Source: Parashewanella spongiae
Lineage (GTDB): Bacteria > Pseudomonadota > Gammaproteobacteria > Enterobacterales > Shewanellaceae
Direction of reading: 5' to 3'
Length of the DNA stretch: 64,000 nt
NCBI RefSeq assembly: GCF_004358345.1
Contig: NZ_CP037952.1
Coordinates: forward strand, 2,232,001-2,296,000
Of the stretch, positions 47,954 through 60,583 are shown piece after piece. The notes below the pieces were generated by a model, which was not told the origin of the DNA, searched no databases, and was given only the letters and a program-made list of their open reading frames with translations. A program made the position numbers and the translations under genes. Each line of letters starts with the position of its first letter. The stretch's first letter is position 1.

Positions 47954-50339
47954 TTCCCACCTCGCTTATCTGCCAAGGCATCATAGTAAAGCGGCAACCA
48001 GTCCTCTGGATTGCTGCCGACTTCCTCGACCAAATCATGCACCAGTTTTACTTTGTCGGTAGTGCCTGAAATCACCGCAAGCTCATCGTCAAAGCCGCTT
48101 AAATCCAGCCCTGTTACTAAGCTTTCATGACCTTGTTTAACGATAAATTGTCGTGAGTTAGGTTGTAATTCAGTGTTAATGATTTCAAATTCTCGTTCGG
48201 TGAGGTTTAAGCCATCAATGTAATCTTCACGTTTGGCTTTAGGATTGGGCATCAAAATGAAAGTGGCGCATTGCTCAATTAAGGTGTGAGCAATTGGAGA
48301 GTTGAGTACATCTTTCGCTGACTGGGTGGCATACACCATAATGCCATTTTGTTTTCGAATGACTTTTTGTTTGTTTTGGGCTAAATCTTCAAAAAACTCA
48401 TCAGCCAGTAGTTTCCAAAATTCATCCATGATGATTTGCAGACGTCTTCCATCAATCAACTTTTCGATGCGATGAAACAAATACATGACAATGGGCGTTC
48501 TAACTTCTTCGCAGTCTAAAAAATCAGTCACATCGAAAGCCATCAGTTTTTGATTGCTGACATCCAGTTGGTCGATTTTGTTATCAAGTATCCATGCTAA
48601 TTCGCCTCCATCGCACCACTTTTGTAATCGAGCATGGCAGCCATCACTTTCAACCGGATCGAGAAACTCCAAGCAGCGGCTTAAGCGTCTAAATGGTCTT
48701 TCTAAACTCATGACGCCGTTTACTGCAGCAGCGAGTTCTTGCTGCTGATTATGTTTGAGTTCACCATCACAAAGTTTTGTAATTAATGCCGTTAAAAACA
48801 AACGATTTTCTGGTGTGTTCTCGATATGAAATGGATTAAAGCCTGTAGGTTTGCCCATTTGCAATGGCAGATACAATCCAGCACAAGCTCGAACGTATAT
48901 CTCTAACCCTCTGTCTTTATCAAACACGATTTGTGTTGGAGCGTATTTTTTACTCTGTGAAATTAGAAACCCTTGCAGCACGGTTTTACCTGAGCCTGAT
49001 GCACCAATTATCAAAGTATTCCCCAAAGCGCGATGCTCGTCCTTAAGCGGGACATCCTTATTGGAGGCATTACTTGCCACATGGTCACACAACACTTTGG
49101 GTGAGTTGCTCTGCTGGTGAGCTTTTAGCGTTATTCGTTTTGGCCGGATGGATAATTGTGTAAGCTGCAAAACCCTGCAAAGTTACGCGATGATATTGGT
49201 GAAGGTCTTGGCCTGTATCTGCTGTTTGATGGCAGTTGCGACCAAAAGGCGGCCGCCATTGCCCAGTCTTCACGAATAGGAATAATCGCGCTGTCTGCTA
49301 ACTCTGACTTTAATGATGAAAGGTTTTGGTCGAGTTGCGATAATGAGCTTGCCATAACCGTTAACACTAAATGATGTTCACCATACACAATGCGACCTGA
49401 TGTTAAGTCATCAAGACCATCACCAATGGCATGTACCTGTGAATGAGCTAGGTCTCCTGTGCTCTGCAAGCGGTTTTGCTGCCGGAGCAATAATTCTGTT
49501 GCTACAGGTTTGGATAAAAACTGAAAGCTTTGAGTTAGCACTAATTCAAATGGAGTTGATAACAATGCATTAAGCAAACCCGCTTCCGTGTTTTCTGGAT
49601 ATTCCGAAATCCCCAAACATGCACCAAAACGGGTTTGCGTAATACCTTTCAATGCAAACGTATCACCGCCAAATAATGGCCTGACTCGGCTAATGATTTT
49701 TGAAATGTCGGCTTTGGGGATAATGCGAGGCTGCCATTCACCATTAACAAGATAATCCAAGAAAGTCAGCACTTCAGAATAGAAATGGTCGTTTTTAAAA
49801 TAGATGTCTAATCGCTTGGGTTGATAAGCGCTTAGTGACGCCATAACTGTATCAACAATACTGTCTAACGCTTTAAGCGCTTTAACTTGCTTGTCGATTA
49901 ATTGCGTATGCTTAGCGCTTCGGCTCAACCAGCTTAATTTATTGTTTTCTCCAGTGGTATACACCACCGTTAGATAAAGTTCATTCACCATCAACTGACT
50001 TTGACAGACTTTTTTGGCGTATTTTTCGTTTAGCTTACGGTCAAACTCACAATCAAACGTCCCTTCCGGAAATACTTTATGCTCACGACGAATAATATGA
50101 GTCCAGAGGCAAGCGTTAGGGCTGCTAATATTTCGCAGCAACAAGTTGAATTGCTCTTTCCAAAGATTGATTTGCTCTGCATCTAAGGTTTCGTGTGGCA
50201 CACCTTTAAGCTTTATGACTTGCAGTAAATCACCATTGTGAGTATTCACAGTATGCTCATCAATATGAGTTTGAAATGGAATGAACTCAGCAACCGTATT
50301 TTCACGCTGCCATTCATGAGTTACAGCCTCTGCTGTCAT
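47887..50339 (-). pseudogene. virB4: VirB4 T4SS ATPase, frameshifted
   Basis: VirB4 powers pilus assembly. The N-terminal half (50339-49131) ends NFAGFCSLHNYPSGQNE-stop; the C-terminal half continues in the -1 frame, with overlap around 49131-49170. Catalytic landmarks in the second half are Walker A GASGSGKT, Walker B RLQIIMDEFWKLL and the ATQSAKDVL motif. Both halves are otherwise full length, so a single-base change split the gene. The site (CCAAAACG) is not a canonical slippery heptamer, so programmed shifting is unlikely. The last ~15 codons are repeat-derived. The start overlaps virB3 (ATGA). Confidence 0.88.
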
Positions 50340-50668
50340 GCGAGTTTCCTCTTTTTTATAATGGTTCTTTCACTAGCTCTTGTATTTGCAAATGGGCTGG
50401 CAGTAGCTGTACCAAAATGACGCCAACCTAACGATTTAGCTTTGGTTGAAAGCCATAATTGAATGAGTCGAAATTGTCTTGGGTCGCGTAAGCAAAGGCT
50501 ATACATGCCAATGTGAACAGGAATATAAAGCAGTAATGTGAGCGGATTTTTAGTGGCTATCATCACCATAGCGACTAAGCCGCCAGCGACAATAATGCCA
50601 TCTAAAGTCACGCCCCATTTCATCGCTGGACGAGTGGCCGCAACAAATAACGGATCTTGGTTATTCAT
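50336..50668 (-). CDS. virB3: VirB3-family T4SS protein
   Basis: 110 residues from ATG 50668 (GAGG upstream); an in-frame start at 50683 is less likely. PLFVAATRPAMKWGVTLDGI and RDPRQFRLIQLWLSTKAKS are typical VirB3 segments around two helices. An inner-membrane protein working with VirB4. It starts 11 bp after virB2 and ends overlapping virB4. Confidence 0.88.
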   Translation of the reverse strand: MNNQDPLFVAATRPAMKWGVTLDGIIVAGGLVAMVMIATKNPLTLLLYIPVHIGMYSLCLRDPRQFRLIQLWLSTKAKSLGWRHFGTATASPFANTRASERTIIKKRKLA

Positions 50669-50679
50669 AGTCAATATCC

Positions 50680-51054
50680 TCAAGAAACTGCAGAGATAAT
50701 GAGATCAACAATGGTTGCACCACCGAACACCAATACGATGCCAGCAATGTATTTGCCGCAGGTCTCGCCAGTAATTCTCCTGAACCAGGCTAGATAGCCT
50801 AAGATTGCAATTCCGATAATTGCAGCACTGCGAGCAATGCCATTGGTGAGCAAGTCCATCACCCAATCCACACCTTCAGTAATCGGGTTAGCAAACGCCA
50901 GTTCAGGCACAAAGAACAAAATGAGCAGTAAAAAAAGACGGGCAAACATCGCCCGAGAAGGTGGTTGTGGAAACTGTGCTGATTGAATGTTGAGTCGTGA
51001 GTTTACTTTTATCTTTGCACTCCAATCTCTTAACTGAGTTGAGCATAAAGACAC
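50680..51054 (-). CDS. virB2: VirB2-family major pilin precursor
   Basis: 124 residues from GTG 51054, which has AGGGA in front; a shorter start at 50949 is possible. A long basic leader precedes the signal core (LFLLLILFFVPELAFA). The mature pilin has two hydrophobic helices (GIARSAAIIGIAILGYLAWF, GIVLVFGGATIVDLIISAV). It is the first gene of the transfer operon; the ~250 bp upstream (to 51302) must contain its promoter. Confidence 0.85.
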   Translation of the reverse strand: MSLCSTQLRDWSAKIKVNSRLNIQSAQFPQPPSRAMFARLFLLLILFFVPELAFANPITEGVDWVMDLLTNGIARSAAIIGIAILGYLAWFRRITGETCGKYIAGIVLVFGGATIVDLIISAVS

Positions 51055-53587: not shown

Positions 53588-53839
53588 ATGAGACAAATTT
53601 TAGCTGATTGTTCAGCAAGTATTTCTGAACTTAAACAAAATCCAACAGCATTGCTAAACGAAGCTGATGGTTCAGCAATTGCAATTTTAAATCATAACAA
53701 ACCTACGGCTTACTTAGTACCTGCTGAAACTTACGAGTATCTTATGGATGCTTTGGATGACGTTGAACTTGGTGAAATTGTCAAAGAAAGGCGAGCTGAT
53801 TTAACCCAGGCAGTAGAAGTAGATATTAATGACTTATAA
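53588..53839 (+). CDS. relB: RelB/Phd-type antitoxin
   Basis: 83 residues. SASISELKQNPTALLNEADG and AIAILNHNKPTAYLVPAETY are diagnostic of the Phd/YefM-RelB antitoxin family (DNA-binding N-terminus, toxin-neutralising C-terminus EIVKERRADLTQAVEVDI). The gene overlaps the toxin gene by 11 nt. The pair usually autoregulates; a short inverted repeat (TCTAAAATAAG...TTTTAGACC) lies just before it. Confidence 0.9.
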   Translation: MRQILADCSASISELKQNPTALLNEADGSAIAILNHNKPTAYLVPAETYEYLMDALDDVELGEIVKERRADLTQAVEVDINDL

Positions 53840-54113
53840 GTTAAAGTTTCTTCCTGCCGCACAAAAAGAGTGGGGTAAGTTGGGCGCTCCAATACAAAAA
53901 CAGTTTAAGAAAAAGCTCATAGAGCGATTAGAAAATCCGCATGTACCAGCAGCAAAACTCAAAGGCTATGAATCAGTTTATAAAATTAAACTCAGAACCG
54001 CAGGTTATCGACTGGCGTATGAAGTCATTGATGACGAAATTGTGGTCTATGTTCTGGCCGTTGGCAAGCGAGATAAGAATCAAGTTTATAAAAAGCTAGC
54101 TTCCCGCTGTTAG
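53829..54113 (+). CDS. relE: RelE-type mRNA interferase toxin
   Basis: 94 residues. YKLKFLPAAQKEWGKLGAPI, AAKLKGYESVYKIKLRTAGY-RLAYEV and VYVLAVGKRDKNQVYK are typical of RelE (ribosome-dependent mRNA cleavage), including the basic catalytic residues. It is preceded by its cognate antitoxin. The following ~300 bp (54114-54424) hold no gene or repeat that I can support. Confidence 0.92.
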   Translation: MTYKLKFLPAAQKEWGKLGAPIQKQFKKKLIERLENPHVPAAKLKGYESVYKIKLRTAGYRLAYEVIDDEIVVYVLAVGKRDKNQVYKKLASRC

Positions 54114-54424
54114 TGCTAGAGTAGGAGAGAGGTTTACCTCTAATGGCACTAGTATAGAAATATTTTTACCGAACGAAACACGTTTCTGGACAGAAATACG
54201 CTAGCCGACCAAGTTGGCAAGGGAGGAGCAAAACCAATTTACGCTCAATTTAATTATTTTTTTGAGTCTGAGATACAACTATGAGCTATGAAACGGCTCC
54301 CCTGTACGGTGGATATTTTTTTGTTATACATTTATAGAATGCCTTAAAGCTGAATATTTTTGTATTTATCATTTCAGTGCGTTATTTCTTAGCTTGTTAA
54401 TTCACTCACTTATTGAGTAATGTG

Positions 54425-57400
54425 ATGACGACAGTGCGCACTCCTGCTGAGCAACAATCAATATATAGATTCATGCTCAAAAGCCTCCAAGAATACCCAA
54501 GCGAAGCCATATCCTATCTTAACTTTGAGGTTTCAAGGTTTGATGATAATGAAGAGTTACAACAGGGTTATCAAAGGTTAAGCAAAACCAATAGACAAAA
54601 GCTGTATGATTTTTTCAACAATAAATCATCGTCGACTCGCTTTAACTCTCGTACACAAGATGCTCATTATTGTAAGAAGCCAAGTAATGCTTGCCGACGT
54701 TTTGCAACTGAGCCCCGATCCATTACTCCAAAATCGAGCATTCAGTATCCCAAGCAAATACAGCAACCACTTTCCTCCCCTGATCCCTTTTTTACTCAAA
54801 CCAGTGGGCTTATTCATTCTTGGAAACTTAAACAGAGAAGCAAAAATCAACTGGGTATTGAGTTAAATGCATTAATTGGTGGTTGCACTAAACTTTCTCA
54901 GCTTATTGAAATCATTCACAGCCTAAATAACGATAAACTGGTCATGGAAACATCATGGAACATAAGATTAATCCATAAATTGTTACACAAAGCCGCCGAG
55001 TTTTCTGACAGCCGTTCATCTAATTTCGACGGCGTTTTTAATGACATAACACGATTTAAATCGTCCTATGAAGCGAAAACATGCATCCTATTACTGAAAT
55101 TAATTAAGTTAAATCTAAATTTTTCAGATGGTAAAAGATTGGTGCTAGGCAATGCAGCTGAAGCCAGCTTAATGCTGCAATGGGGCATCAAGCCTAATGT
55201 TGCCATTTACAATGCTTTTATCACGGTATGCGCTAAAACTGGCCAGTTTGATAGTGCTTGGCACCTAGTGTGTGGTGATAAGCCCGTGATGGCACCTCAT
55301 TTGCTATTAAAAGCCAATCAAATCACCTGCATGAATTTGCTGACGGCCTGCGCTGAAACGGAGCGTTATGCCGAAGCCAAATCATTGGTGTTGGCCGATG
55401 ACAATGGCGATACAGATACAGCCAGCTTAATGCAACAATGGGGCATCAAGCCTGATGTTGCCGTATACAGCGCCTTTATCAAGGTATGCGCTAAAACAGG
55501 CCAGTTTGATAGTGCTTGGCTATTGGTGTGTGGTGATAAGCCCGTGATGGCACCTCATCTACCACTAAAGGCAGATTCAATCACCTGTCTGAATTTGCTG
55601 GCTGCCTGCGCTGAAGCGGGGCATTATGCAGAAGCCAAGTCATTGGTGTTAGGCGATGACGATACAGATACAGCCAGCTTGATACAACAATGGGGCATCA
55701 AGCCTAATGTTGCTGTTTACAGCGCCTTTATCACGGTATGCGCTAAAACTGGCCAGTTTGATAGTGCTTGGCAACTGGTGTGTGGTAATAAGCCCGTGAT
55801 GGCACCTCATCTACCACTAAAGGTAGATTCAATCACCTGCACGAATTTACTGACGGCCTGCGCTGAATCGAGGCGTTATGCAGAAGCCAAATCATTGGTA
55901 TTGGGCGATGGCAATACAGCTACAGACAGCTTAATGGAGCAGTGGGACATCAAGCCTAATGTTGCCATTTACAATGCCTTTATCACGGTATGCGCTAAAA
56001 CTGGCCAGTTTGATAATGCTTGGCAACTGGTATGTGGTGATAAGCCCGTGATGGCACCTCATTGGTCATTAAAAGCCGATCAAATCACCTGCATGAATTT
56101 GCTGGCTGCCTGCGCTGAGAATGGACGTTATGCCGAAGCCAAATCATTGGTGTTGGGTGATAGTGATACAGCCAGCTTAATGCAACAATGGGGCATCAAA
56201 CCTAATGTTGCCATTTACAATGCCTTTATCACGGTATGTGCTAAAACGGGTCAGTTTGATAGCGCTTGGCGACTGACGTGTGGTAATAAGCCAGTGATGG
56301 CACCTCATTTGTCATTAAAAGCCAATCTAATCACCTGCATGAATTTGCTGGCTGCCTGCGCTGAAGCGGAGCGTTATGCAGAAGCCAAATCATTGGTGTT
56401 GGGCGATACAGCTAAAGCAACAGCCAGTTTAATGCAGCAATGGGGCATCAAGCCTGATGTCGCCATTTACAATTCCTTTATCACGGTATGTGCTAAAACT
56501 GGCCAGCTTGATAGCGCTTGGCAACTGGTGTGTGGTGACGAGCCTATAATGGCACCTCATTGGCCATTAAAAGCCAATCAAATCACCTGCATAAATTTGC
56601 TGACGGCCTGCGCTGAAACGGGGCGTTATACAGAAGCCAAATCATTGGTGTTGGGTGATGGCGACACAACTACAGCCAGCTTAATGCAACAATGGGGCAT
56701 CAAGCCTGATATTGCCATTTACAGCGCCTTTATCACGGTGTGCGCTAAAACTGGCCAGTTTGATAGTGCTTGGCAACTGGTGTGTGGTGATAAGCCCGTG
56801 ATGGCACCTCATCTACCACTAAAGGCAGATTCAATCACCTGCATGAATTTGCTGACGGCCTGCGCTGAAACGGGGCGTTTTACCGAAGCCAAGTCATTGG
56901 TGTTGGGCGATGGTGCTACAGCTACAGCCAGCTTAATGCAGCAGTGGGGCATCAACCCTGATGTTGCCATTTACAGTGCCTTTATCACGGTATGCGCTAA
57001 AACGGGTCAGTTTGATAGAGCTTGGCAACTGGTGTGTGGTGATAAGCCCGTGATGGCACCTCATCTACCATTAAAGGCAGATTCAATCACCTGCATGAAT
57101 TTGCTGGCTGCCTGCGCTGAAGCGGGACGTTATGCAGAAGCCAAATCATTGGTATTGGGCGATGGCGATACAGCCAGCTTAATGCAACAATGGGGCATCA
57201 AGGCTGATGTTGCCACTTACAATGCCTTTATCACGGTATGCGCTAAAACGGGCCTGTTTGATAGTGCTTGGCAACTGGTGTGTGGTGATAAGCCCGTGAT
57301 GGCACCTCATTTGCCATTAATAGCCAATCGAATCACCTGCCTGAATTTACTGACGGCCTGCGCTGAAGCGGGGCGTTATGCCGAAGCCAAATCATTAGTG

Positions 57401-57961
57401 TTGGGCGATGGCGATGGCGATGGCGATACAGCTACAGCCAGCTTAATGAAACAATGGGACATCAAGCCTGATGTTGCCATTTACAATGCCTTTATTAAAG
57501 TATGTATTAAGGCTAAGGAGTTAGGCACTGGAATATGGTATTTAGAAGAAATAATAAACAGGTGTAACATGAGTACTCTTTCACAAATACATGCTCAACT
57601 TGCGCCACTTGAAAAAGATAATTTCGCAAGCATGATTGATAAAGGGATAACACAAGGAATATATAAAAAAAATGTTGGCTTAATGAATCATTGTATCGAT
57701 TTGCATATGGATAAAATCTTCGAAGGAGATTCAGGTGATGGTACACATATTCGAGGTGTTCCATTAGCTTTCGCAAAACTATTATTTTGTTACCACAAAC
57801 AAAACAATGAACCCAACATAACATCGATCATAACTGGATACCATGGCAATAATACGTTAAAAAATGGAATGATAAGTTTTCTCAAAGATGAATTTGGACT
57901 TGAGTTTATCGAGGATGAATTCAACTCAGGAATGATAGTATTGAGCAAGTCTGCCCATTAA
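54425..57961 (+). CDS. Giant pentatricopeptide-repeat (PPR) protein with Smr-like C-terminus
   Basis: About 1,178 residues. Residues 1-245 are a low-similarity lead-in. From ~250 to ~1040 there are 19 alternating PPR-like motifs: ten of type A (GIKPDVAIYNAFITVCAKTG then QFDSAWQLV) and nine of type B (ITCMNLLAACAEAGRYAEAK then SLVLGD). Each A+B unit is ~78-86 residues (~240-255 bp) and repeats are nearly identical. The PPR hallmarks (G-x-x-P-D, then V-x-x-Y-N, A/C-x-x-G, A) are clear. Residues ~1090-1175 resemble an Smr domain (IDLHMDKIF, then SIITGYHGNN, then SGMIVL). PPR proteins bind RNA base by base; Smr domains are often nucleases. The start could also be GTG 54422 or TTG 54413. The DNA is more GC-rich than its surroundings. 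TPR is the main alternative for the fold. Confidence 0.85.
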   Translation: MTTVRTPAEQQSIYRFMLKSLQEYPSEAISYLNFEVSRFDDNEELQQGYQRLSKTNRQKLYDFFNNKSSSTRFNSRTQDAHYCKKPSNACRRFATEPRSITPKSSIQYPKQIQQPLSSPDPFFTQTSGLIHSWKLKQRSKNQLGIELNALIGGCTKLSQLIEIIHSLNNDKLVMETSWNIRLIHKLLHKAAEFSDSRSSNFDGVFNDITRFKSSYEAKTCILLLKLIKLNLNFSDGKRLVLGNAAEASLMLQWGIKPNVAIYNAFITVCAKTGQFDSAWHLVCGDKPVMAPHLLLKANQITCMNLLTACAETERYAEAKSLVLADDNGDTDTASLMQQWGIKPDVAVYSAFIKVCAKTGQFDSAWLLVCGDKPVMAPHLPLKADSITCLNLLAACAEAGHYAEAKSLVLGDDDTDTASLIQQWGIKPNVAVYSAFITVCAKTGQFDSAWQLVCGNKPVMAPHLPLKVDSITCTNLLTACAESRRYAEAKSLVLGDGNTATDSLMEQWDIKPNVAIYNAFITVCAKTGQFDNAWQLVCGDKPVMAPHWSLKADQITCMNLLAACAENGRYAEAKSLVLGDSDTASLMQQWGIKPNVAIYNAFITVCAKTGQFDSAWRLTCGNKPVMAPHLSLKANLITCMNLLAACAEAERYAEAKSLVLGDTAKATASLMQQWGIKPDVAIYNSFITVCAKTGQLDSAWQLVCGDEPIMAPHWPLKANQITCINLLTACAETGRYTEAKSLVLGDGDTTTASLMQQWGIKPDIAIYSAFITVCAKTGQFDSAWQLVCGDKPVMAPHLPLKADSITCMNLLTACAETGRFTEAKSLVLGDGATATASLMQQWGINPDVAIYSAFITVCAKTGQFDRAWQLVCGDKPVMAPHLPLKADSITCMNLLAACAEAGRYAEAKSLVLGDGDTASLMQQWGIKADVATYNAFITVCAKTGLFDSAWQLVCGDKPVMAPHLPLIANRITCLNLLTACAEAGRYAEAKSLVLGDGDGDGDTATASLMKQWDIKPDVAIYNAFIKVCIKAKELGTGIWYLEEIINRCNMSTLSQIHAQLAPLEKDNFASMIDKGITQGIYKKNVGLMNHCIDLHMDKIFEGDSGDGTHIRGVPLAFAKLLFCYHKQNNEPNITSIITGYHGNNTLKNGMISFLKDEFGLEFIEDEFNSGMIVLSKSAH

Positions 57962-59343: not shown

Positions 59344-60583
59344 CAGGGCGGGATCGCGCTTTAGGTCTTGAAAAAAATAATTAAAGAAATTTTGAACTTT
59401 CCTCTATAACGATGATCAGATCGACAAATGAATACTGATTTGAGCCTGATTATGGACGTAATGAAAGAGATTGAGCAAATTGAAGACCATCGTGTAGAAG
59501 CCAATAAAGAGTATGATTTAGCGGATATTATTTTTCTTACTATTGCCGCAGTGCTTTGCGGTGCGACAGGGTGGAAAGCCATCAACATTTTTGGGGAAGC
59601 TCAATTAGATTGGTTAAGACAATACCGTCCATTTAGTAACGGTATCCCGACAAGACATTCAATTGGAAGAATAATTAGAGGTGTTAAAGCCGAAAGTATG
59701 ATGTCTTGCTTTATTAACTTTTCCAACACATTACGGGAACGAGATGGTAAAGAGCATATCAGCTTTGATGGTAAAGTGGCTTGTGGTTCTAAGCACGGGG
59801 ATAACGTAGCAGCGCTTCAACTAATGACGGCAATGGTTGTGGATAATGGACTGATAATACGTCAAAAAGAAACGTCGACTAAAACGAACGAAATCCCTGT
59901 AATGCAATCCATGCTAAAACACATGGACATTGAAAATGCAGTTATTACCGCTGACGCCATGCACTGCCAGAAAGAAACTACAGCCTTAATACGTGAGGGA
60001 AAAGGTGATTACGTTCTTCAAGTGAAAAAGAATCAAGGTAAATTACTTGCTGAAATTGAAGCTTATTTTCATAAGTGCTATAGAGATACACCAGAGCTTT
60101 TAAAAAAGAATCACTTTACAGAATTAGACGGTGAGCACGGACGAATTAATGAAAGACATTATCGCCTTTTGCCAATTACAAATTGGTTTGACGAAACAGC
60201 TAAATTTGTAGGCAGTCATGCCGTTGTTGAAGTCACTCGAATGCGAGAGCTGAAGAATAAATCAAGTCAAGAAACGTCTTACTACATAACTTCGTTAGCC
60301 AGTGATGTGAAAGATATAGCTAAATATATACGGAAGCATTGGGCAATTGAAAATAGTCAGCATTGGGTTCTCGATGTCACTTTTAAAGAGGATGCCTGTA
60401 AAATTTATGCTGATGATGGTGCAAAAAATTTGGCTATAATCAGAAGAAAGATTTTGAACTTAGTTAAAAGTCACTCTTCAAAAGACAGTGTTGCTGGCAA
60501 GATGCAGAGAGCCTGCTGGGATGCAAAATTTAGGGCTGAGATTTTGTTTGGTGAATATTTCATCAAAGCATAATCCCGCCCTG
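59344..60583 (+). mobile_element. ISAs1-family insertion sequence, complete, with 10-bp target duplication
   Basis: The terminal inverted repeats are CAGGGCGGGAT at 59344-59354 and ATCCCGCCCTG at 60573-60583 (1,240 bp). Direct repeats CATATTTAGC at 59334-59343 and 60584-60593 are identical. The transposase frame is intact. This looks like a recent, possibly active insertion. Confidence 0.95.
59428..60573 (+). CDS. ISAs1-family transposase (H-repeat type)
   Basis: 381 residues, DDE type. The N-terminal DDE_Tnp_1-associated region (IEQIEDHRVEANKEYDLADI, FLTIAAVLCGATGW) is followed by the catalytic domain with HISFDGKVACGSK (first Asp), VITADAMHCQKET (second Asp) and KHWAIENSQHWVLDVTFKED (Glu). 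The stop lies inside the right inverted repeat, as usual for this family. The length is normal. Confidence 0.95.
   Translation: MNTDLSLIMDVMKEIEQIEDHRVEANKEYDLADIIFLTIAAVLCGATGWKAINIFGEAQLDWLRQYRPFSNGIPTRHSIGRIIRGVKAESMMSCFINFSNTLRERDGKEHISFDGKVACGSKHGDNVAALQLMTAMVVDNGLIIRQKETSTKTNEIPVMQSMLKHMDIENAVITADAMHCQKETTALIREGKGDYVLQVKKNQGKLLAEIEAYFHKCYRDTPELLKKNHFTELDGEHGRINERHYRLLPITNWFDETAKFVGSHAVVEVTRMRELKNKSSQETSYYITSLASDVKDIAKYIRKHWAIENSQHWVLDVTFKEDACKIYADDGAKNLAIIRRKILNLVKSHSSKDSVAGKMQRACWDAKFRAEILFGEYFIKA

Follow-up and report, generated by a model that had tools for sequence, protein, structure and literature searches.

A massively duplicated family of modular pentatricopeptide repeat proteins, with predicted RNA-reading arrays that differ from gene to gene, in Parashewanella spongiae

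We analyzed a 64,000-nucleotide stretch of the Parashewanella spongiae genome (contig NZ_CP037952.1, positions 2,232,001 to 2,296,000; hereafter the window), and observed that the pentatricopeptide repeat (PPR) protein gene that it carries is one member of a massively duplicated family. When the window protein was compared with its own genome, a single contig of 5.47-Mb, 116 matching stretches were found at about 50 places scattered chromosome-wide, and 45 intact family genes were recognized, 41 of them close to the window gene. Repeat amplification, which had been suggested for the window gene in an initial annotation made from the sequence alone, is therefore supported far beyond one gene. 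PPR proteins are viewed as a toolkit of eukaryotic organelles that bacteria seldom possess, and here 45 intact ones are found in one bacterial genome. The evidence, mainly from sequence, makes it likely that they form a diversified repertoire of modular RNA-binding proteins, the binding being predicted. The parts of the window gene, all on the forward strand, are as follows.

54413-57961, forward strand: open reading frame (ORF) of the PPR protein, starting at TTG 54413 or at ATG 54425
54425..57961, forward strand: PPR protein gene counted from the ATG, 1,178 aa
54220..54412, forward strand: upstream stretch common to paralogues by pairwise homology, which usually reaches 110-220 bp ahead of the frame; the copied unit starts near here
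54323..54354, forward strand: 32-bp upstream element repeated across the genome, a probable promoter region
54425..54616, forward strand: N-terminal region, conserved in the family and helical in a low-confidence model
55079..55198, forward strand: degenerate B-like PPR motif ahead of the array
55199..57472, forward strand: nine A+B units, the A motif of 40 aa and the B motif with a variable loop
57473..57592, forward strand: tenth A motif, diverged, at the end of the array
57695..57706, forward strand: IDLH motif of the Smr-like C-terminal domain
57833..57847, forward strand: TGYHG motif of the Smr-like C-terminal domain

The ATG at 54425 is more likely to be the start, and a GAG ribosome-site-like stretch precedes it. 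The protein carries ten PPR motifs of type A and nine of type B, which strictly alternate after the one degenerate B-like motif. This is the arrangement that the initial annotation had proposed, and it was borne out both by the match to PF13812 (PPR_3; 2.2e-54) and by cutting the array into its repeats. The matches to PF13041 (3.6e-50) and TIGR00756 (1.7e-35) were, like that to PF13812, far above chance, and Tandem Repeats Finder reported a period of 252 bp with 9.2 copies and 85% matches. The best sequence matches in the PDB were designer PPR proteins. An AlphaFold2 model of the window protein, built on an alignment of two sequences (one relative), had an overall predicted local distance difference test score (pLDDT) of 65.7 and a predicted template modelling score (pTM) of 0.46. 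It consisted of repeating helix pairs, with a pLDDT mostly of 60-86 over the repeat region and of ~80 in the helix cores, and its top Foldseek matches were PPR10-RNA and designer PPRs. Sequence and model together support the assignment of the window protein as a PPR protein with the geometry of a helical-hairpin solenoid. A tetratricopeptide repeat (TPR) identity, which had been named as the alternative fold, was ruled out, since PPR families and PPR structures rank first. Using Pfam, neither a DYW or E domain nor a TALE repeat was found in the window protein; PPR families matched instead. The A repeats are always 40 aa long (350 cut), and the B repeats are 42, 44, 46 or 48 aa long in 348/350 cases. 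Their length shifts nearly always by two residues, both in the window array (55199-57472) and in the copies.

The 41 close intact ORFs share the same N-terminus, the alternating array and the same C-terminus. They measure 596-1,434 aa in open frame, contain 3 to 13 A motifs each as counted with a hidden Markov model (HMM), and together occupy 143,082 bp, or 2.6% of the genome. The divergent intact genes are that of locus L024, with 57% identity, and two in L012 and one in L026, with 34-37%. In addition, eight broken loci or fragments (in L036, L017, L021, L048, L034, L030, L015 and L043) and two chimeras with ORFs that read as ankyrin-like (L038 and L052) were detected. In L038 (G000:C1:2807337-2810927) the ankyrin-like ORF contains an in-frame PPR segment, and in L052 a second ORF of this kind ends with an N-terminal PPR scrap. 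An N-terminal module shared with other effectors was considered and rejected, since the L038 and L052 matches are fused PPR segments with no common leader. The L021 fragment (G000:C1:1184744-1186021) is 99% identical to residues 755-1182 of the window protein, and we take it to be a very recent copy or conversion.

What was copied appears to be the gene together with its upstream region. Homology between copies extends upstream to a median pairwise distance of ~90-185 bp from the frame, and to 798 bp in a few pairs; downstream, where there are two sequence types, it covers ~100 bp in the more frequent one, is absent in some copies, and for a few pairs runs past 1,300 bp. The 32-bp element occurs in 46 genomic copies at ≤3 mismatches, 41 of them exact, and a backward control gave none. 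It was observed before 40/41 intact close genes, and its remaining 6 copies stand before broken ones; we consider it a probable promoter region. In the flanks, a cluster encoding a reverse transcriptase with a group II maturase domain (Pfam) was the widest-spread, at 11/45 loci, and several clusters that read as transposase-like recurred at 3 to 6 loci each. Using Rfam, group II intron parts were found at gathering level in 6/6 loci examined, and in L011, L018, L046 and L047 ends of group II introns are located 3′ of the PPR gene, soon after its stop. In the flanks of the 45 loci we detected no transposase that the copies share, and no target-site duplication was seen by eye. In the scheme that we propose, gene and upstream region were duplicated as a unit, and the copies then diverged and probably recombined, so that each gene would have come to carry a different array and, hence, to address a different predicted RNA.

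The case for such a function rests on the two residues of each motif that specify a base in plant PPR proteins, position 5 and the last position. The repeat set was drawn from 43 ORFs, namely the 41 close genes that are intact, the L036 copy, which is truncated, and the fragment in L017, and comprised 350 repeats of each type. It omitted the A motif that closes each array and any unit lacking clear anchors, among them four double-length gaps. Among the 40 positions of the A repeat, the last (40) and position 5 rank first and second in residue heterozygosity (0.529 and 0.508; mean 0.142). Position 5 is N in 181, S in 166 and C in 3 repeats, and the last position is N in 178, D in 161, C in 8 and S in 3 (n=350). 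We thus observed N or S at position 5 in 347/350 repeats, and N or D at the last position in 339/350 (N, D or S in 342/350); the code positions hold code residues though others could be reached by a single base change. Jointly, NN was found 104 times, SD 88, SN 74 and ND 70, with 14 others (n=350), and the two positions vary in near, yet incomplete, independence (chi-square p 0.013). As given in PMC10482289, the plant code reads T/S+N as A, T/S+D as G, N+D as U, N+S as C, and N+N as Y. Under that code the A pairs would read ND as U, NN as a pyrimidine, SN as A, and SD as G.

In the B repeats position 5 is M in 154, L in 87, T in 57, I in 48 and V in 4 cases, and the last position is N in 193, D in 149 and another residue in 8 (N or D in 342/350). 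Position 5 is second and the last position fourth to fifth in variability among the 37 scored columns, loop columns being excluded, and columns 14, 1 and 9 are comparably variable. The B repeats resemble the plant L-type motif, because L-type motifs in PMC10482289 carry MD, VD and LD, position 5 thus being M, V or L. We propose that residues 5 and last (N/S × N/D) let each A repeat read a single RNA base, and that the B repeats, mostly with M, L or I and sometimes with T at position 5, would be L-type-like and read less strictly. The A strings predicted in this way are all distinct (43/43); in 17/43 ORFs the string is partial, because fewer A motifs were cut than the HMM finds. Variation at the code positions suggests sequence-specific RNA binding. 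Near-clonal A repeats that vary chiefly at the code residues would serve as a natural experiment with the PPR code, and the family could also supply RNA engineering with uniform PPR modules.

Several results weigh against this interpretation. The ratio of nonsynonymous variation (pN) to the overall synonymous variation (pS) was 0.85 at the last A codon and 0.76 at codon 5, codon 36 falling in between (0.79). Since pN stays below the overall pS, the A code codons lack formal evidence of positive selection. In the B repeats the ratio was 2.0 at codon 1, 1.8 at 14, 1.5 at 5 and 1.3 at 9, and lower, 0.83, at the last one; moreover, 293/350 B repeats carry a non-canonical residue at position 5. In the A pairs that are ≤3 nt apart (142), the seven residues that differ most often include no code position, and in the corresponding B pairs (73) position 5 is joint first, with the last position outside the top seven. 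The last A residue is also tightly linked to the following residue, B1 (N-Q 143 and D-S 138, n=350), and part of the dimorphism at that A position is therefore that of two old segment types. At ≤5 nt, position 5 tops the differing residues of the A pairs (1,033), with the last position outside the top seven, and in the B pairs (387) position 5 is first and the last third. Fast code switching in near-identical A pairs was therefore set aside: it is unsupported at ≤3 nt, and at ≤5 nt only position 5 leads. The case for function is thus made from confinement to code residues, from their balance, and from the two positions combining freely, and not from rate. Over the terminal regions pN/pS was 0.56 (C-terminal) and 0.50 (N-terminal), with 31/41 copies used.

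The initial annotation had also placed an Smr-like domain behind the array, and this part of its reading fared less evenly. All 41 close genes carry [IL][DN]LH and TG[YF]HG (IDLH in 36, LDLH in 3 and INLH in 2; TGYHG in 40 and TGFHG in 1), with exact IDLH and TGYHG together in 35/41. The H, T and G residues are invariant across 11 diverse members, and TG[YF]HG exceeds the TGxG of plants by one residue. A single-sequence model of the C-terminal domain had the order b-a-b-a-b-b at low confidence (pLDDT 48.5). Smr folds resemble the C-terminal domain of initiation factor 3, and that domain (1tig) was among the weak Foldseek matches of the model.

For an Smr domain, the evidence from profiles and fold is weak. 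Pfam Smr (PF01713) had no match in the window protein or in any of the 11 aligned members, and in a search of the own genome (E≤1), where four candidates were scored and three listed, none lay at a PPR locus. Searching the PDB with a profile of the C-terminal domain returned three weak, unrelated matches and no Smr, and Foldseek with the low-confidence model gave no Smr among the 50 matches listed, the best one being TYW1 (6.3e-3). With hhalign, the domain scored 19.3 (probability 5%) against 29 bacterial Smr domains, for a best score of 18.1 in 100 shuffles, and 24.2 (probability 24%) against the Smr region of the L063 protein described below, for a best of 16.0 in 60 shuffles. The Smr match of the L063 protein itself is 19.8 bits, under the Pfam cut-off of 25.7. 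Finally, the L061 protein of P. curva is without the TG half of the domain. Hence the earlier interpretation is supported in PPR identity, geometry and amplification, and its Smr-like region has the IDLH and TGYHG motifs and is unmatched by Pfam. We consider the C-terminal region Smr-like by motif, and an Smr domain with a nuclease role plausible; by analogy with what is reported for SOT1, the conserved domain would most likely cut or otherwise act on the bound RNA, and family members probably cleave RNA. A stand-alone relative of the domain, 193 aa long, is encoded at L019 (G000:C1:846073-846651, reverse strand).

A search for the same protein found it in 2/5 genomes of the genus, own genome included, and in 0/55 drawn from outside it. 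Among 369 genomes of the class, only the own genome and one presumed false match were recovered; the latter (L103 in G298) lies on a gene that reads as PKD-repeat-like, and was taken as a low-complexity match. PF13812 was over threshold in 1/398 genomes of the phylum, which is the own genome, and PF13041 in at least 3/369 of the class, an undercount because only the top candidates were scored and the own genome was missed. The phages, plasmids and viral contigs searched contained no relative, and an origin from such elements was rejected on these grounds. We conclude that the family is genus-restricted, with no close relatives outside the genus in the genomes drawn.

The code positions were also read in the relatives. 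The L061 protein (894 aa; genome G004, same genus) has seven A motifs, with ND in four, SN in two and SD in one, and T at position 5 in 7/7 B motifs. In the divergent genes of the own genome, position 5 of the A motif takes N, G or S, and the last position N, D or T. The L063 protein (L063:1-3042, reverse strand; 1,014 of 1,052 aa covered), from the distant gammaproteobacterium G154, combines a PPR array, a weak Smr match and a RickCE/C48 protease domain. Over its 15 scored repeats, position 5 is N in 6, S in 4, A in 3, T in 1 and F in 1, and is the third most variable scored column; the last position is N in 10 and D in 5, with six columns more variable. This protein resembles the family in its near-identical PPR array varying at 5 and last, followed by the weak Smr match, but differs in its single 34-35-aa repeat type and in the extra protease domain.

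Among known systems, the plant PPR-SMR proteins (SOT1, GUN1 and pTAC2) have the same order of a PPR tract followed by C-terminal LDxH-like (here IDLH) and TG-containing motifs. The present family, however, is bacterial, has dozens of near-identical paralogues and two strict repeat types (40 and mostly 42-48 aa), and carries TGYHG where plants have TGxG, without recognition as Smr by Pfam. The PLS-class editing factors of plants likewise intersperse code-following motifs with L-type ones, in which position 5 is M, V or L (PMC10482289), whereas the window protein alternates two motifs, A and B, and lacks the DYW and E domains. TALE and STAR effectors form multigene families. Their logic is alike, in that a variable residue pair per repeat sets base specificity (PMC11417379); TALEs, however, read DNA and have no sequence match to the window protein, and the likeness is one of analogy only. 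RipL of Ralstonia (PMC4617103) and Llo1404 and Llo2643 of Legionella longbeachae (PMC2824747) also have PPR repeats and belong to host-associated bacteria, but in the portions of these papers available one or two proteins are named and no repertoire is described, and the five repeats of RipL are called degenerate. According to PMC2824747, the bacterial PPR proteins counted in 2010 numbered 12; PMC4029402 holds the motif to be exclusive to eukaryotes, PMC7542358 mentions PPR domains in some Legionella, and PMC7848895 describes them in sponge-associated Thaumarchaeota and as unreported in bacterial sponge symbionts. Within the available parts of the literature searched (on the PPR code, PPR-SMR proteins, bacterial and effector PPRs, sponge symbionts, and Parashewanella and Shewanella), such a repertoire is undescribed.

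Where the proteins would act is a matter on which we are evenly balanced: the preferred site is a eukaryotic host cell, reached by export for which a type III secretion system (T3SS) is the first candidate. We observed a T3SS secretin gene, SctC (TIGR02516), at 505 bits against a cut-off of 238 in the own genome, and SctC, by which alone the T3SS was judged, was over the cut-off in 5/5 genomes of the genus. Against this, the T3SS is genus-wide and the PPR family is present in only 2/5 genus genomes. Export by a type IV system is also conceivable, because VirB2-, VirB3- and VirB4-like genes (Pfam) are found at 3-5 kb on the upstream side of the window gene. Among listed type III effectors is RipL, which has PPRs (PMC4617103), the two L. 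longbeachae PPR proteins are placed among host-type domains (PMC2824747), and the RickCE/C48 domain of the L063 protein is, by its Pfam name, of the host-directed kind. Taken together, SctC, RipL, the L. longbeachae PPRs and the L063 protease lead us to favour host-directed action over defence, regulation of own RNAs and lack of function. If exported, the proteins are candidate RNA-directed TALE-like effectors. A more specific version, that the family is the RNA counterpart of TALEs (some forty exported PPR ribonucleases with different RNA words, read by the four combinations of N/S × N/D, which would cut host transcripts, e.g., mitochondrial ones, and be reprogrammed by repeat recombination), is a possibility that we hold tentatively and with considerable doubt.

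The same repertoire might instead act inside the bacterium on the RNA of phages, plasmids or mobile elements, as a protein-based sequence-specific defence. Array diversity would fit this, as would an end that may be RNase-like; transposase and group II intron genes recur near the copies, and the window gene adjoins a ParDE-like pair. Yet PADLOC gave no meaningful match (one weak MTase_II hit at 1.9e-4, with no passing stretch), the copies are scattered rather than held in a single island, and phages, viral contigs and plasmids lacked any relative that would suggest capture or spread; we judge defence unlikely. Distinctly unlikely, in our estimate, is that the proteins are endogenous post-transcriptional regulators of the cell's own RNAs, with one target per paralogue as in plant organelles, whose PPR proteins are the closest functional model. 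The upstream element common to nearly all close copies means that they may be co-expressed; however, 41 near-identical paralogues with differing arrays in 1/5 genus genomes are unlike core regulation.

A selfish or simply amplified family, spread by recombination and insertion elements, whose arrays drift without a function at the level of the code, would account for the group II introns and transposases near many copies, for the two chimeras and 8 broken loci, and for the A repeats being without formal positive selection. It is less easily reconciled with 41 long intact ORFs, with the terminal-region pN/pS of 0.50-0.56, with A code positions confined to code residues instead of drifting freely, and with flanks that have no common transposase and a widest-spread cluster at 11/45 loci. 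We regard it as improbable, and as the least probable of these explanations. The preferred reading remains that of a repertoire of modular RNA-binding proteins, perhaps directed at a host.

The window gene was described earlier as lying in an accessory region with richer GC than its surroundings. The GC content is indeed higher, 42-48% at 55-58 kb compared with 37-38% in the preceding two kilobases and 29% in the one following, but the excess tracks the repeats. The accessory setting is borne out by half: the type IV secretion genes agree with such a region, whereas the dispersal of the family over about 50 places along the chromosome does not. These genes, VirB4/TrbE-, VirB3- and VirB2/TrbC-like (window 49131-51054, reverse strand; Pfam), occupy a GC-richer stretch. 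Immediately 5′ of the PPR gene lies a pair encoding a Phd/YefM-type antitoxin and a ParE-type toxin (window 53588-54113; Pfam), and 3′ of it a DDE transposase is encoded (window 59428-60573; Pfam PF13808/PF01609).

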